Shown piece after piece: positions 7,345-18,426 of a stretch of DNA of 64,000 nt. The notes beneath the pieces are model-generated. The model ran no database searches. It was not told the origin of the DNA and worked only from the letters and a program-made list of their open reading frames with translations. Position 1 is the first letter of the stretch. Every line of letters starts with the position of its first letter. Source of the stretch: Isoetes taiwanensis (lineage: Eukaryota > Streptophyta > Lycopodiopsida > Isoetales > Isoetaceae); the NCBI GenBank assembly GCA_021234155.1, contig JAJEKV010000055.1:4327537-4391536 (forward strand). Reading direction: 5' to 3'. Both the position numbers and the translations under genes were made by a program.

Positions 7345-10300
7345 ATATATAGACTAGCAGAACCCTAAACCAAAAAGCTTAGCTATCCAGCAAGCCCTTA
7401 TGGGTCCTTTTGATTTAAATAAACCAAGAAGGGGATCTTGGAAACCTCCAAACTATAGAGTATTACTTGCCAAAAACTGCCATAATTAAGGAGATAAGGC
7501 CACAACAATTCTGTTCACATATAATTGTATCAGAACAGCTAGGATTCGCTAAGTAATCTAGACACAATGCCTATATAATTTATTGCAGATGTAAATCAGA
7601 GTAGATCAGCAAAGAAAATCAGCAAAGTAGAGTACTAAAGAGGACAATTAAGTATAAAACAAATTCATTCATTCATATGCCATTAAATGGCGAAACTAAT
7701 AACAAATATTGTCTAAAGTGCACTTACTTTTTTTGCACGCCTAAAAGGAGCTAATAGGCTCAGAAAATTCATACCAAATACATATAGAAGTAGAAATAAC
7801 AGATTATCTTGTAGATGGGGAATCTTTAAACAAGTCTTTCAGAACAGCAACATTGTGCAATAGACAAACCATCCAAAAGCATGGGAGAAGAAGGTTTGGT
7901 TACCTGCAGTCAAACAGATCAGAGATTAGCCTACTGGGTAATTCTGAAATTGACTAGCAGGTAAGCAATAAACCCTCTTGGCATTTTCAGCCCTTTACCC
8001 AAAATGTTAACCAAAAGGCAAATAATTATTTAGAACATGAAAGATCTTTAACATGTAATTCATTCGATTAGCTTAAAATATACATGGGTTAGTATAAGAT
8101 GCAGATACCATAAATTCTTACCACAGCGGCAGTACAGTAGTTTGCTTAATCTGACAGTAGTGATGGATAATTTAACAGTGGTAAAGGATAATTTTAACAA
8201 TGGTAATTGACAATTTCCTCTAATGGTACACAGCCTGCCTAAACAATAGTAAACAAAAAATAAACAAAAAATAAACAAAAAATAAACAAATGCTCCCAAG
8301 GAGCAGATTAAATGATATTTGCAAAATAAAGGGATGCATGCGTATGTAAAAAATCTAAGAGACCAGGTTCCAAACTTATACTAAGTATGTAGCAGCAAGG
8401 GATGGAGAATGAAGTGAATATGATAATGCATTAATTATGCTTTGAGGAGTAAGTGACAATAATCTGATTAAACTTAAAGAACTATGTCAATGTACTGATC
8501 TATTCAAAGTTACAGATCCAAGGCCACCAGACAGAATCTCAAATTTAGAATAACCAATTTACTGAAATCAGATCTAGAGTATTAGGTACAATTAGTTTAG
8601 GAACATGTTAAAACTAGATCCTAAGAGAGGATATTCCAACTATGCATATCGGGGAGCCTAGAATGATCAAACCAGCCTATTAGTATTGCCACAAGTCATA
8701 CATTGAACTAGATTTGCTAGAGCAAAGTGGAGAGAATTATAAGGAAAGATCTGGAAATATCTGGTAATAACTGGAAAAATCTGGAAAAATCAGCAAGCAT
8801 CCAAGAAACATATTAATGAATTAAACCTGATTTTGTTGTATTTCGTTCTGCAGTATGTCATCCTCAGACTCCTCATCTGATAGGGGCACTAGTGTGATGT
8901 TGTTTGGTCCAGAATCCTTGTTGATGTTGCTACAATTCTGTAATCCACCCATGAATTTTGTAATGCTGCTATCACTTTTCTCTCTGCCAGGATCAATCCC
9001 ATTAACCCTACAGAGTTCCAATAATTGTGCCTTTGTGGGCTGCACATTGGGGTGCTCAATTCCCCTTCTTCTGAGCACTTCAATCAGCTTAGATCTGGTA
9101 AGGCCTTTGTTAGGAGCGCCCTCCGGGCGTCCAGCCTTGCTCATTCTCCCATAGAGCAATGTAAGTCATTTTAGTGCCTTAAATAGGCCAGAGAAACGGA
9201 TTAAGGTAACGGATTAGAGTAACCAAAGCAATCATCTATGATCTTAACAGCATAAGGAGCGTATTAACCGGCTACATAAGCAATTGCAGAGAATAGAAAA
9301 TAAGAACCGCCATGCTTACCCGGAAAAGCCATCTGTAAAAAATAATTTTCGTTAAAAAGCCGAAGTTCCAAATGTTGCTTGTACATCGCCATTGTATCCC
9401 AAAGAAAACGGTTGGGATCCGATTAAACCATAGTGAACGGGCAGACTAAATCGCCATCGGGCCTTAGGGTTTCGCAATTCTCCATTTCGTATGTTTTTAG
9501 GTTAACTTAAAGCAGTACTAGGAAAAAATGTGCACATAATAATGTGTATATTATATTAAACCCCATGATGTTCCACCATAGAGAGCACATTAAATTGTTC
9601 TTTGCAAGGTTAGACATTCAAATTGGTATTTGCTACCATATGTCCATCAAGGGTTTCTTGTTGTACAATACATAAGGTTTACAAAGTGTTATATGGCCAA
9701 GAGACTATCATATACCATATCCGGTTCATTCCAGTGAAAAAAGATCATAAAGTCCAAAGTTAAGAGGTAGTATACTACAATCATGCGAGGATATGCATCC
9801 AAAGGCGCTTCTATATAAGTCCAGCGGATTAAAAGGTGTTCCAACAGTGGATAATGGTTTGGTACTAGATATAGGGTACACCTTCTTCATACGTTAGTAA
9901 CTAGATTGTCCAGTGCTCATGTCTGCCTTATAAGATTCCGTGTGCATTACATGTTATGTTTACCAGTAAGTGAGGTGGTTGACCTTACCCTTAGTGCTAA
10001 AAGGATTAGATAGCTTTTGCCAAAAGCAAGTTTCCCTTTGTTGCATAGCCTGCACTCTGTAGATTTAAGTAAAACATACATCAGAACTAATATGCCCTTA
10101 GCAAGCAACATGATACAAAACCTTCTAGAAAATAGGACATATTTTTATTTAGGAAATACCACTTGCCATAATCTTAAAATAAAGTACCAACTTGGGTTCA
10201 TAAAAACCATAGAAGGAAATTAAAGAAGTTAGAGAAATAAAGGGAATTAAAGAAATAAAGGAAATTAAAGAAAATAAGGAGGTTAAAGAAATTAAAGAAA

Positions 10301-10695
10301 CCTTATCTTAAATCATTCAGGTAGGAATGGGATCTTTTAGCCATGGGGACAAGCTTGCCATAGAATTAATTCCATTACGTAAGCAAAAAATCTACCTTTT
10401 GTAGTCCAGTTTTGTATGACATAACTCCAGCTTGAAAAAACCATTCATTTTGCAGGTCAAGAAATCTGGATAAACCACAGCAAAGGACCAGAGCCAAAGG
10501 GATAGGCCCTGGCAACAAGTAGTGAATTCTGGTTCCCAAAGTCATAACCATAGCCAGTAGATATGTGCATTATCATTTTTAGGACCAGAAATTTAGCTTT
10601 AGGAAACTCAGAGAGCTGCAAAGACCATGGTGCAAAATTTGCTCGGGTCACACCAGATCCAAAGATTAGCATGATACTAGTTTAAGCAAAGCCAA
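7345..10695 (-). repeat. Left (3') pseudo-LTR of the Penelope-like element
   Basis: Near-identical to 15,080-18,426 over its whole length. Differences are small: the left copy has extra AATAAACAAA-type units near 8,250-8,290 that the right copy lacks, and the right copy has about 30 bp more near 15,110-15,170. It starts at ATATATAGACTAGC and ends at AAAGCCAAATATA next to a TA run. It holds one short minus-strand ORF and otherwise AT-rich non-coding DNA, including GAAATTAAAGAA-type repeats near 10,220-10,310. Confidence 0.9.
8821..9159 (-). CDS. SAP/AT-hook-like small protein, left-repeat copy
   Basis: A 112-residue ORF that differs from the right-repeat copy (16,544-16,882) at only two residues (N38 and V52 here; S and A there). 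Residues 7-18 hold a basic GRP-containing stretch resembling an AT-hook. Residues 20-55 form two predicted helices separated by a Gly-Ile turn with a Lys-x2-Leu-Leu pattern, the layout of SAP/HeH DNA-binding domains. The C-terminal third is acidic (SDEESEDD). The codon before the final Val-stop carries a splice-donor-like CAG|GTTTAA. This copy sits downstream of the RT, so it may be expressed only if a further unit follows. The function is inferred from the fold pattern only. Confidence 0.6.
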   Translation of the reverse strand: MLYGRMSKAGRPEGAPNKGLTRSKLIEVLRRRGIEHPNVQPTKAQLLELCRVNGIDPGREKSDSSITKFMGGLQNCSNINKDSGPNNITLVPLSDEESEDDILQNEIQQNQV

Positions 10696-16549: not shown

Positions 16550-18426
16550 CTGATTTTGTTGTATTTCGTTCTGCAGTATGTCATCCTCAGACTCTTCATC
16601 TGATAGGGGCACTAGTGTGATGTTGTTTGGTCCAGAATCCTTGTTGATGTTGCTACAATTCTGTAATCCACCCATGAATTTTGTAATGCTGCTATCACTT
16701 TTCTCTCTGCCAGGATCAATCCCATTAGCCCTACAGAGTTCCAATAATTGTGCCTTTGTGGGCTGCACACTGGGGTGCTCAATTCCCCTTCTTCTGAGCA
16801 CTTCAATCAGCTTAGATCTGGTAAGGCCTTTGTTAGGAGCGCCCTCCGGGCGTCCAGCCTTGCTCATTCTCCCATAGAGCACTGTAAGTCATTTTAGTGC
16901 CTTAAATAGGCCAGGGAAACGGATTAAGGTAACGGATTAGAGTAACCAAAGCAATCATCTATGATCTTAACAGCATAAGGAGCGTATTAACCGGCTACAT
17001 AAGCAATTGCAGAGAATAGAAAATAAGAATCCGTCATGCTTACCTGGAAAAGCCATCTGCGAAAATAATTTCTGTTAAAAAAGCTGAGTTCCAGCTGTTG
17101 CTTGTACATCGCCATTGTATCCCAGCAGAAACGGTTAGGGATCCGTTAAACCATAGTGAACTGCAGACGGAAATCGCCATCGGGCCTTAGGGTTTCGCAG
17201 AATTCTCCATTTCAGATGTTTTTAGGTTAACTTAAAGCAAAGATTATTAAAAAAAATGTGCACATAATAATGTGTATATTATATTAAACCCCATGATGTT
17301 CCACCATAGAGAGCACATTAAATTGTTGCTTTGCAAGGTTAGTCATTCAAATTGGTATTTGCTACCATATGTCCATCAAGGGTCTTGTTGTACAATACAT
17401 AAGGTTTACAAAGTGTTATATGGCAAGAGGACTATCATATACCATATCCGGGTTCATTCAGGGTGAAAAAGATCATAAAGTCCAAAGTTAAGAGGTAGTA
17501 TACTACAATTCGCGAGGATATGCATCCAAAGGCAGTTCTATATAAGTCCAGCGGATTAAAAGGTGTTCCAACAGTGGATAATGGTTTGGTACTAGATATA
17601 GGGTACACCTTCTTCATACGTTAGTAACTAGATTGTCCAGTGCTCATGTCTGCCTTATAAGATTCAGTGTGCATTACATGTTATGTTTACCAAGAAGTGA
17701 GGTGGTTGACCTTACCCTTAGTGCTAAAAGGATTAGATAGCTTTTGCCAAAAGCAAGTTTCCCTTTGTTGCATAGCCCTGACTGTGAGATTTAAGTAAAA
17801 CATACATCAGAACTAATATGCCCTTAGCAAGCAACATGATACAAAACCTTCTAGAAAATAGGACATATTTTTATTTAGGAAATACCACTTGCCATAATCT
17901 TAAAATAAAGTACCAACTTGGGTTCATAAAAACCATAGAAGGAAATTAAAGAAGTTAGAGAAATAAAGGGAATTAAAGAAATAAAGGAAATTAAAGAAAA
18001 TAAGGAGGTTAAAGAAATTAAAGAAACCTTATCTTAAATCATTCAGGTAGGAATGGGATCTTTTAGCCATGGGGACAAGCTTGCCATAAAATTAATTCCA
18101 TTACGTAAGCAAAAATCTACCTTTTTGTAGTCCAGTTTTGTATGACATAACTCCGGCTTTGAAAAACCATTCATTTTCTTGAGGTCAAGAAACTGGATAA
18201 ACCCAAAGAAAGGACCGAGCCAAAGGAATAGGTCCCGGCAACAAGTAGTGAATTTGGTTCCCAAAGTCATAACCATAGCCGTGAGATATGCGCATTATTA
18301 TCATTTTAGGACCGTAAATTTAGCCTTTTAGGAAAACTTCGTGAGCCCGCCCATGGTGCAAAATTTGCTCGGGTCACACCGGATCCAAAGATTAGCATGA
18401 TACTAGTTTAAAAGCATAAAAGCCAA
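15080..18426 (-). repeat. Right (5') pseudo-LTR of the Penelope-like element
   Basis: The 5' copy of the 3.35 kb direct repeat in the sense of transcription. It should hold the promoter and carries the SAP-like exon (16,882-16,550). The part between that exon and 15,080 is the bulk of the predicted intron. Its outer end abuts a (TA)n tract of about 160 bp. Confidence 0.9.
16550..16882 (-). CDS. SAP/AT-hook-like exon 1 of the Penelope-like element
   Basis: The 5' repeat copy of the 112-codon ORF. Of it, 111 codons precede a splice-donor-like CAG|GTTTAA. It has a basic GRP-containing N-terminus (residues 7-18), two helices with Gly-Ile turns (20-34 and 41-55) in a SAP/HeH-like arrangement, and an acidic tail. 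Its position in the 5' direct repeat, 1.7 kb upstream of ORF1 with matching splice phase, makes it the likely N-terminal domain of the gag-position protein. An AT-hook/SAP module could bind AT-rich DNA such as the flanking TA tract; that is inference. The ORF on the opposite strand (16,578-16,877) is treated as a shadow because the minus-strand frame gives the coherent domain. Confidence 0.65.

Follow-up and report, generated by a model that had tools for sequence, protein, structure and literature searches.

How does a retroelement without an endonuclease find a DNA end from which to copy itself? Penelope-like elements (PLEs) that lack an endonuclease, EN(−) PLEs, are thought to prime from telomere ends, and they bear on the origin of telomerase. 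Gladyshev and Arkhipova reportedly described EN(−) PLEs of Selaginella moellendorffii in 2007. The literature records EN(−) PLEs in Selaginella, pine and spruce (PMC9033089) and locates those of Selaginella at telomeres (PMC12477314). The endonuclease-deficient Terminon PLEs carry a hammerhead fold at the 3′ end, followed by telomere-complementary repeats (PMC6431247). More broadly, PLE studies describe direct pseudo-long terminal repeats (pLTRs) from tandem arrangement, initiation of reverse transcription inside the RNA and a preference for AT-rich DNA, together with a GIY-YIG endonuclease and often a hammerhead (PMC11167929, PMC3846280). Here we describe a retroelement, W, in a 64,000-nucleotide stretch of the genome of the quillwort Isoetes taiwanensis (the window; C1062:4327537-4391536, where C-numbers are host-genome contigs and L-numbers are stretches read from them). 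We favor, at a probability of about 0.6, the reading that W is a retroelement, of probable Penelope type and without an endonuclease, and that it belongs to a long-lived quillwort family specialised on internal AT microsatellites rather than telomeres.

The element, its reading frames and its family

The coding strand of W is the minus strand, and in coding sense the order is (AT)n, 5′ repeat, gag-like open reading frame (ORF), reverse transcriptase (RT), RNA fold, (AT)13, 3′ repeat, (AT)n (Table 1). A first-pass annotation, made from the letters alone, had called a mobile element in a plant with an RT, a gag-position ORF and coding direct repeats; the host is a plant, and all of these parts are in place. 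The RT is uninterrupted as described, with HVRTTDL at residue 98, the A-motif Asp at 361 and YIDD at 503–506, in agreement with the earlier numbering. The extent of the RT ORF also stands, while its start is a splice-acceptor-like CAG, placed behind an in-frame stop, and not an ATG. The direct pLTRs, a partial tandem arrangement of the kind found in PLEs, measure 3349 and 3342 bp as cut and differ by 118 mismatches and 25 gap events. The repeats are thus long and direct, and "nearly identical" was a little generous for 96.4% identity. A recent origin holds only in part, with a difference of 3.6% between W's own repeats and of about 1–9% to the nearest other copies; because the differences are clustered, perhaps through long-read errors, repeat divergence was left out of dating. 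The present analysis adds (AT)n borders, splice sites, an RNA fold and a candidate priming site to the earlier description.

The window RT frame (12902-10818) is open over 694 codons from stop to stop, or 680 amino acids from a TTG at 12860, has no ATG within its first 100 codons, and carries the motifs HVRTTDL, ADITKCYENIP, GIPMGF, YIDD, FLNM and YDKR. The gag-position frame spans 527 codons from stop to stop (487 from its ATG), and its cysteines 339, 344, 346 and 354 are invariant in five of five aligned rows. At E≤0.1, Pfam RVT_1 finds a match in all but one of 12 family RTs, the best having E=2.7e-5. The absence of GIY-YIG, the canonical endonuclease of EN(+) PLEs, was borne out in Pfam searches of the 12 RTs (none at E≤0.1) and of five gags and the window's two exon 1 ORFs (none at E≤1). 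Likewise, the integrase or recombinase that would have spoken for another kind of element found no Pfam match in the ORFs tested, nor did the protease and RNase H of LTR retrotransposons; LINE traits are missing too, as repeats are present and no APE or REL endonuclease matched.

Relatives outside the quillwort are scarce. A single-sequence RT search of 5.8 billion proteins returned no relative among 4672 candidates, and a profile search of the same proteins returned one among 6123 word-sharing candidates: P0001, an unnamed S. moellendorffii protein of 1002 amino acids (E 3e-120; 31% identity over 652 aligned positions). Repeating the profile search with P0001 added, at E≤10, brought up the same 6123 candidates and gained nothing. 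The first 345 residues of P0001 may resemble the gag profile, to judge from an hhalign score of 28.2 (50 shuffles: maximum 24.0, mean 16.3), for which the hhalign probability is only 5.7% (2.9% with the whole of P0001) and plain BLAST gives E=0.065. The window ORFs had no NCBIfam match at E≤1, PDB sequence searches yielded only YaxB, in one of them and at chance level (E=0.19), and none of 49 pattern stretches from viral contigs was related.

Splice-site sequences suggest how the frames are joined. In all 13 RT rows compared, the frame starts at a CAG of the same phase; a stop codon stands immediately 5′ of this CAG in six of them, 11 have no ATG in the first 78 codons, and mean pairwise identity at the acceptor is 56% over the 60 nt downstream versus 37% over the 60 nt upstream. 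Similarly, the gag ORF starts directly after an AG acceptor in six of six rows, and neither frame has an ATG that is conserved. Each repeat holds a 112-codon ORF (16882-16544 and 9159-8821 in the window), and this small ORF ends at a CAG/GT donor in seven of seven rows from six loci, all sites being in phase 0. Two ORFs, gag at 14821 and RT at 12899, offer this donor its longest phase-0 continuations in the window, which makes exon 1 (16867-16550) the natural first exon of both proteins. We therefore regard exon 1 as likely, from the sequence, to be common to the RT and gag ORFs; alternatively, a splice donor may lie within gag. If they are used, the conserved splice sites seen in genomic DNA would parallel the PLE habit of keeping introns in genomic copies. 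Exon 1 opens with GRPEGAPNKG followed by a HeH/SAP-like stretch, and TATAA occupies the position of W's TATA-like box in the five other loci compared. In C11 (L012, L013) and C1061 (L021, L022), exon 1 is intact in the 3′ repeat and damaged in the 5′ repeat, despite repeats that are 94–99% alike, perhaps because of assembly errors.

W is one of a family in its host. The first-pass annotation had suggested counting genomic copies, and a search of the host genome (1,658,258,908 bases, 1110 contigs) with RT DNA found at least 41 places (40 of 612 candidates scored). The 18 copies examined are mostly the best matches and hence a favourable sample; the RT is open from splice site to stop in 12 of them. 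Compared with the window RT, the other eleven RTs of the alignment have 52–75% amino acid identity, and a broken C412 copy, matched piecewise, has about 39%. Gag is open in five of the nine loci that cover its region (W, C412, C11, C1061 and C996); C966 has lost the last codons, the frame is broken in another C966 copy and in an older one on C412, and most of gag is missing from C1075. dN/dS is 0.05–0.12 for the RT (7 of 15 pairs computable) and 0.06–0.18 for gag (5 of 10), the other pairs being saturated and dS exceeding 2 in several of those computed. These low values indicate that coding constraint was held long, across old lineages, and together with the recurrence of the same order of parts elsewhere in the genome they argue that the element is not a chance assembly. 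In the within-family tree the Selaginella branch is very long, so the root was not used.

Incomplete copies are informative as well. The close relative in C996 is truncated at its 5′ side and consists of the 3′ part of the RT, the fold, an AT tract, the repeat and (AT)13; 5′ truncation on insertion, as in PLEs, is thus represented by this one copy. A repeat DNA search gave 11 matches, four of them places of the window's own family, including W's two repeats. At C1082 a solo repeat lies between an AT tract and an ACAT/AT tract, and the 7001 bases read there contain neither RT nor gag. Beside it (C1082:5732783-5735323, L063) lie pieces 70–77% like the window repeat that end at another (AT)n and are perhaps a tandem repeat of another subfamily. 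At C996:13708681-13708706, two different family members abut tail to tail at a single (AT)13 tract.

A covarying RNA fold and (AT)n ends

Directly 3′ of the RT, up to the AT tract, W has a stretch with a folding energy of −50.5 kcal/mol (z −5.96). The motif was recognised in 20 (19 distinct) of 26 loci inspected, and the loci were aligned without reference to structure; left out were C966, where an AT-rich insertion breaks the fold, C1093 and C974 (stretch without the motif), C985 at 447 kb and C1034 (fold region outside the stretch), and the older C412 copy, in which none was found. In the consensus structure 94.7% of cells are paired, compared with 47–60% when it is slid along the alignment. 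Nine pairs are altered on both sides and covariation is 0.263 versus 0.159 after shuffling, values that none of 500 shuffles reaches, while four of 500 reach the observed number of further pair types; the shuffles ignore relatedness, and these counts are not probabilities. Searching the window and 18 loci with a covariance model gave nine matches of 75–104 bits, six of which were already aligned and three new: the second C966 copy, the truncated C996 copy and an unassigned place in L026. The next match, at 26.8 bits, is the C966 element with the interrupted fold, and no match in the repeats exceeds that score, the fold being single in each element. Rfam offered no family at the fold position at E≤5. 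An alternative hairpin is the lower state in one of 20 loci when the core is folded alone and, judged by eye, in 11 of 20 when a longer stretch is folded. The fold copy at L026:4370-4482 (C966:1199370-1199482, minus; 75.5 bits) lies on the strand opposite to the adjacent C966 copy.

The fold is followed by an AT tract. In 17 of the 20 loci an uninterrupted AT run of 10 nt or more lies within 60 nt 3′ of it (16 found by script, and C1026b read directly); the background frequency of such a run is 0.44%, measured on 60-nt stretches of window DNA beyond the element. The anatomy of a 3′ fold followed by a target-complementary repeat is therefore present in the family, with (AT)n and not telomeric DNA as the target.

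Where would synthesis begin? We compared the internal and terminal ends of the repeat in W, C11, C966, C1061 and C1045, the C1045 pair being inferred from its 7.4 kb spacing alone. Internal copies read GTCTATATATA or GTCTATATATTT and then CCC, or GGCATATATAACACG in C1045; terminal copies agree with them over the opening letters of this tract and then run into (AT)n, with an interruption in W. Since the copies part inside the AUAUAU tract, (AT)n DNA ends probably prime reverse transcription there: an (AT)n end would pair with AUAUAU of the RNA and prime cDNA, with GUCUAUAUAU as the start tract. At the level of sequence, the genomic ends of all five pairs would be compatible with reverse transcription that begins within the RNA, close to where the repeat joins the internal part. 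Some 65–75 nt 5′ of the AU tract stands the word GGACTGATAAGTCC, which occurs at 12 exact places in the loci read, and it is not intact in W's 3′ repeat. Just 3′ of the candidate priming site (window 15049-15065, minus) is a hairpin-like CACTAG-TTTTA-CTAGTG, for which the internal copies in other elements have CACTAGTNNTACTAGTG.

W is not telomeric. It lies 4.3 Mb inside a 9.7-Mb scaffold, and neither the window nor the loci read (179,700 bases in L009–L052) contain (TTTAGGG)2 or longer, TTTAGGG being the assumed host telomere repeat. The 3′ flank starts with ACAAG right after (AT)n in six of eight elements (C412, C11, C1075, C1061, C1061b and C1067); C996, the ninth row, was set aside, since what follows it is the adjoining element and no true flank. 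At about C1075:2692606-2692735 (L019) two inverted arms of about 50 bp each, AGATGTTCATAA...ACTTGT / ACAAGT...TTATGAACATCT, enclose a central AT tract and no insert, and one of the arms resembles the 3′ flank of the C1075 element.

Table 1. Features of the quillwort element W, in window coordinates
Feature	Position	Strand	Basis or remark
5′ border (AT)n tract	18427..18589 (163 nt)	.	sequence
5′ direct repeat, pLTR-like	15080..18426	-	repeat pair 96.4% identical at aligned positions
TATA-like box, TATTTAA in window, just 5′ of exon 1	16902..16908	-	putative function
Putative coding exon 1, 5′ repeat copy, 3′ end CAG|GT	16550..16867	-	donor 7/7 rows, 6 loci
Putative coding exon 1, 3′ repeat copy	9144-8827	-	
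Self-complementary word GGACTGATAAGTCC near 3′ end of 5′ repeat	15156..15169	-	12 exact places in loci read
Internal AU tract GTCTATATATTT, candidate (AT)n-DNA priming site	15078..15089	-	internal/terminal copies part inside tract
Gag-like exon/ORF, acceptor TTTTAG/GAAGGG	13238..14821	-	
RT exon/ORF, acceptor AACAG/ATAAAA	10818..12899	-	Pfam RVT_1 E=0.0016, below cut-off
Structured RNA, conserved, in 3′ UTR	10728..10811	-	covariation; 102 bits; −50.5 kcal/mol, z −5.96
(AT)13 separating RNA fold from 3′ repeat	about 10696..10725	.	sequence
3′ direct repeat, pLTR-like	7345..10695	-	repeat alignment
3′ border (AT)n tract	7194-7340 (147 nt)	.	sequence

Between gag and RT, window 12952-13113 holds an 81-bp tandem duplication containing the hairpin-like word GTTGGCCACAGAGCCAAC; the core of the duplicated word, GGCCACAG-GCC, recurs 5′ of the RT acceptor in several other loci. 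Elsewhere in the window, 36785-40183 (minus) contains pieces of a Ty3/gypsy chromovirus, with protease, RT, integrase zinc domain and chromodomain in separate frames, and 24000-30000 is a purine-rich, strand-asymmetric stretch of about 6 kb (GC skew 0.36–0.71 and AT skew 0.36–0.68 in 2-kb steps) with no tandem array scoring ≥300.

Weighing the explanations

Several observations weigh against the reading we prefer. The window RT reaches only 18.6 bits against RVT_1, where the cut-off is 29.6 (E=0.0016); P0001 is likewise below the cut-off (E=0.00017), and its best NCBIfam match is a weak one to group II RT (E=0.0044). We call the family Penelope-like only as probable, the sole protein relative found being the Selaginella protein and the window RT matching RVT_1 below the cut-off. 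A hammerhead, a common PLE trait, appeared neither with Rfam nor in a core scan of window 7100-18700. Six of the 26 loci yielded no fold, the AT tract is short or interrupted in C996, C1026a and C963, and the role of the fold is unclear because it lies about 3.3 kb from the candidate priming site. A palindromic target centred on (AT)n found a matching arm in none of five 5′ flanks, and recombination, whether between repeats or between AT tracts, could account for absent 3′ repeats and for solo repeats. Exon 1 contributes further doubts: GRPEGAPNKG, which we take to resemble plant AT-hooks, has no database match, the following stretch matches HeH (E=0.13) and UBA_3 (E=0.085) only below threshold, the HeH match being weak, the C996 element itself has only a diverged exon-1-like ORF, and exon 1 is damaged in one C11 copy and one C1061 copy.

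Could the family be a separate retroelement lineage with its own RT, one that gained PLE-like terminal repeats independently? The near absence of RT relatives, the lack of a PDB relative beyond YaxB, the sub-threshold RVT_1 match of the window RT, the missing hammerhead and a TATA-like box placed in the repeat, in the style of LTR elements, would all suit such a lineage. However, the repeat layout, the internal RT start, the AT-rich targets, the introns, the 5′ truncation and the lack of an endonuclease recur in published PLEs, and the sole relative comes from Selaginella, a plant with EN(−) PLEs on record, and we judge an independent lineage unlikely, if worth keeping in view. Far more remote is the idea that these are domesticated host genes: frames long kept open under purifying selection would agree with it, yet a solo repeat, a 5′-truncated copy, broken copies and (AT)n borders make it scarcely credible.

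Two other proposals reinterpret the 3′ region while leaving the element itself in place. The fold could act as a self-cleaving ribozyme, exposing (AU)n by trimming the RNA and replacing the hammerhead of telomeric PLEs. It occupies the position of the Terminon hammerhead, followed by target-complementary repeats (PMC6431247), and it covaries while matching no Rfam family; but no hammerhead core was found, the 5′-truncated copy contains fold, AT tract and 3′ repeat consecutively, as if the RNA had been read through, and each element has one fold with nothing above 27 bits in its repeats. A ribozyme thus remains a tentative suggestion that we would not bet on. The (AT)n tracts, for their part, might be made and not chosen, with the RT recopying its own (AU)n onto DNA ends in the manner of telomerase and so lengthening AT repeats. 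W's outer tracts, at 147 and 163 nt against 26 nt for the internal one, and a probable kinship with telomerase speak for this idea, whereas the same stretches also hold AT tracts away from any detected copy, the internal tract of C11 is about as long as its outer one, and AT microsatellites are generally understood to lengthen by slippage anyway; we consider it quite improbable. An EN(−) element of probable Penelope type that targets (AT)n remains the explanation we prefer.

Proposed mechanism and relation to known systems

We propose that the element of probable Penelope type would move as follows. Transcription would start just 5′ of exon 1, from a promoter inside the repeat, as the TATA-like box suggests, and exon 1, with its AT-hook-like and HeH/SAP-like DNA-binding module, would be spliced in phase to the gag-like or the RT exon. 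The RNA would continue through gag, RT, fold and (AU)n into the 3′ repeat, as the 5′-truncated copy suggests. Once the RT complex has been recruited to (AT)n DNA, a free 3′ end of (AT)n, arising there without an endonuclease of the element's own, would pair with AUAUAU near the end of the repeat and prime cDNA. Synthesis would then proceed 5′-ward, an early stop giving a truncated copy and a stop after the repeat a solo repeat, unless the latter comes from recombination, and a template jump at (AU)n could yield the flanking repeats. The fold would most likely recruit the RT or make it stop or jump at (AU)n.

Taken further, the family can be imagined as an internal "microsatellite telomerase": a telomerase-related RT and a structured RNA with (AU)n that extend AT-repeat ends at breaks or cruciforms, with a spliced DNA-binding exon common to RT and gag for AT targeting. 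We hold this stronger version to be distinctly doubtful. If true, endonuclease-less PLEs would have in it a living alternative to attachment at telomeres, and the 3′ fold would be a new class of functional RNA. The spliced common first exon would, if real, be an unusual route to one DNA-binding module in both an RT and a gag-like protein. Because the family combines a covarying fold, open frames and defined ends, endonuclease-free priming becomes testable in vitro.

How does the family compare with known systems? The first-pass annotation had entertained an undescribed clade; the branch is possibly a known one, because EN(−) PLEs of Selaginella, pine and spruce are already on record (PMC9033089). 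Like the EN(−) PLEs of S. moellendorffii, the quillwort family has a lycophyte host and no GIY-YIG, and the nearest RT found is a Selaginella protein; theirs are reported from telomeres, whereas the quillwort copies are internal and (AT)n-bordered, with no telomere repeats found. Dryad and the conifer EN(−) PLEs are likewise plant PLEs and are likened here by description only (PMC9033089). LTR retrotransposons are alike in having a promoter-like box in the repeats, a gag-then-RT order and solo repeats, but the quillwort element has no integrase, protease or RNase H match and its borders are (AT)n.

Among Penelope/Poseidon elements, PAc of Anolis, as described in PMC11167929, shares the direct pLTRs, an internal start near the repeat junction, AT-rich targets and a supposed pLTR promoter. 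PAc has GIY-YIG and a hammerhead, neither of which was matched in the quillwort element, and its start site is not homologous to the cut DNA, in contrast to the quillwort AUAUAU, which matches (AT)n. Finally, Athena/Terminon of bdelloid rotifers also lack an endonuclease in the RT ORF, place a 3′ fold before target-complementary repeats and carry extra ORFs; their fold is a hammerhead and their repeats are telomeric, whereas the quillwort family has a different fold and (AU)n. The quillwort family thus seems to follow the same logic as EN(−) PLEs, a fold and then a target-complementary repeat, with another fold and another target, and it is a possible internal counterpart of the chromosome-end attachment of its relatives.

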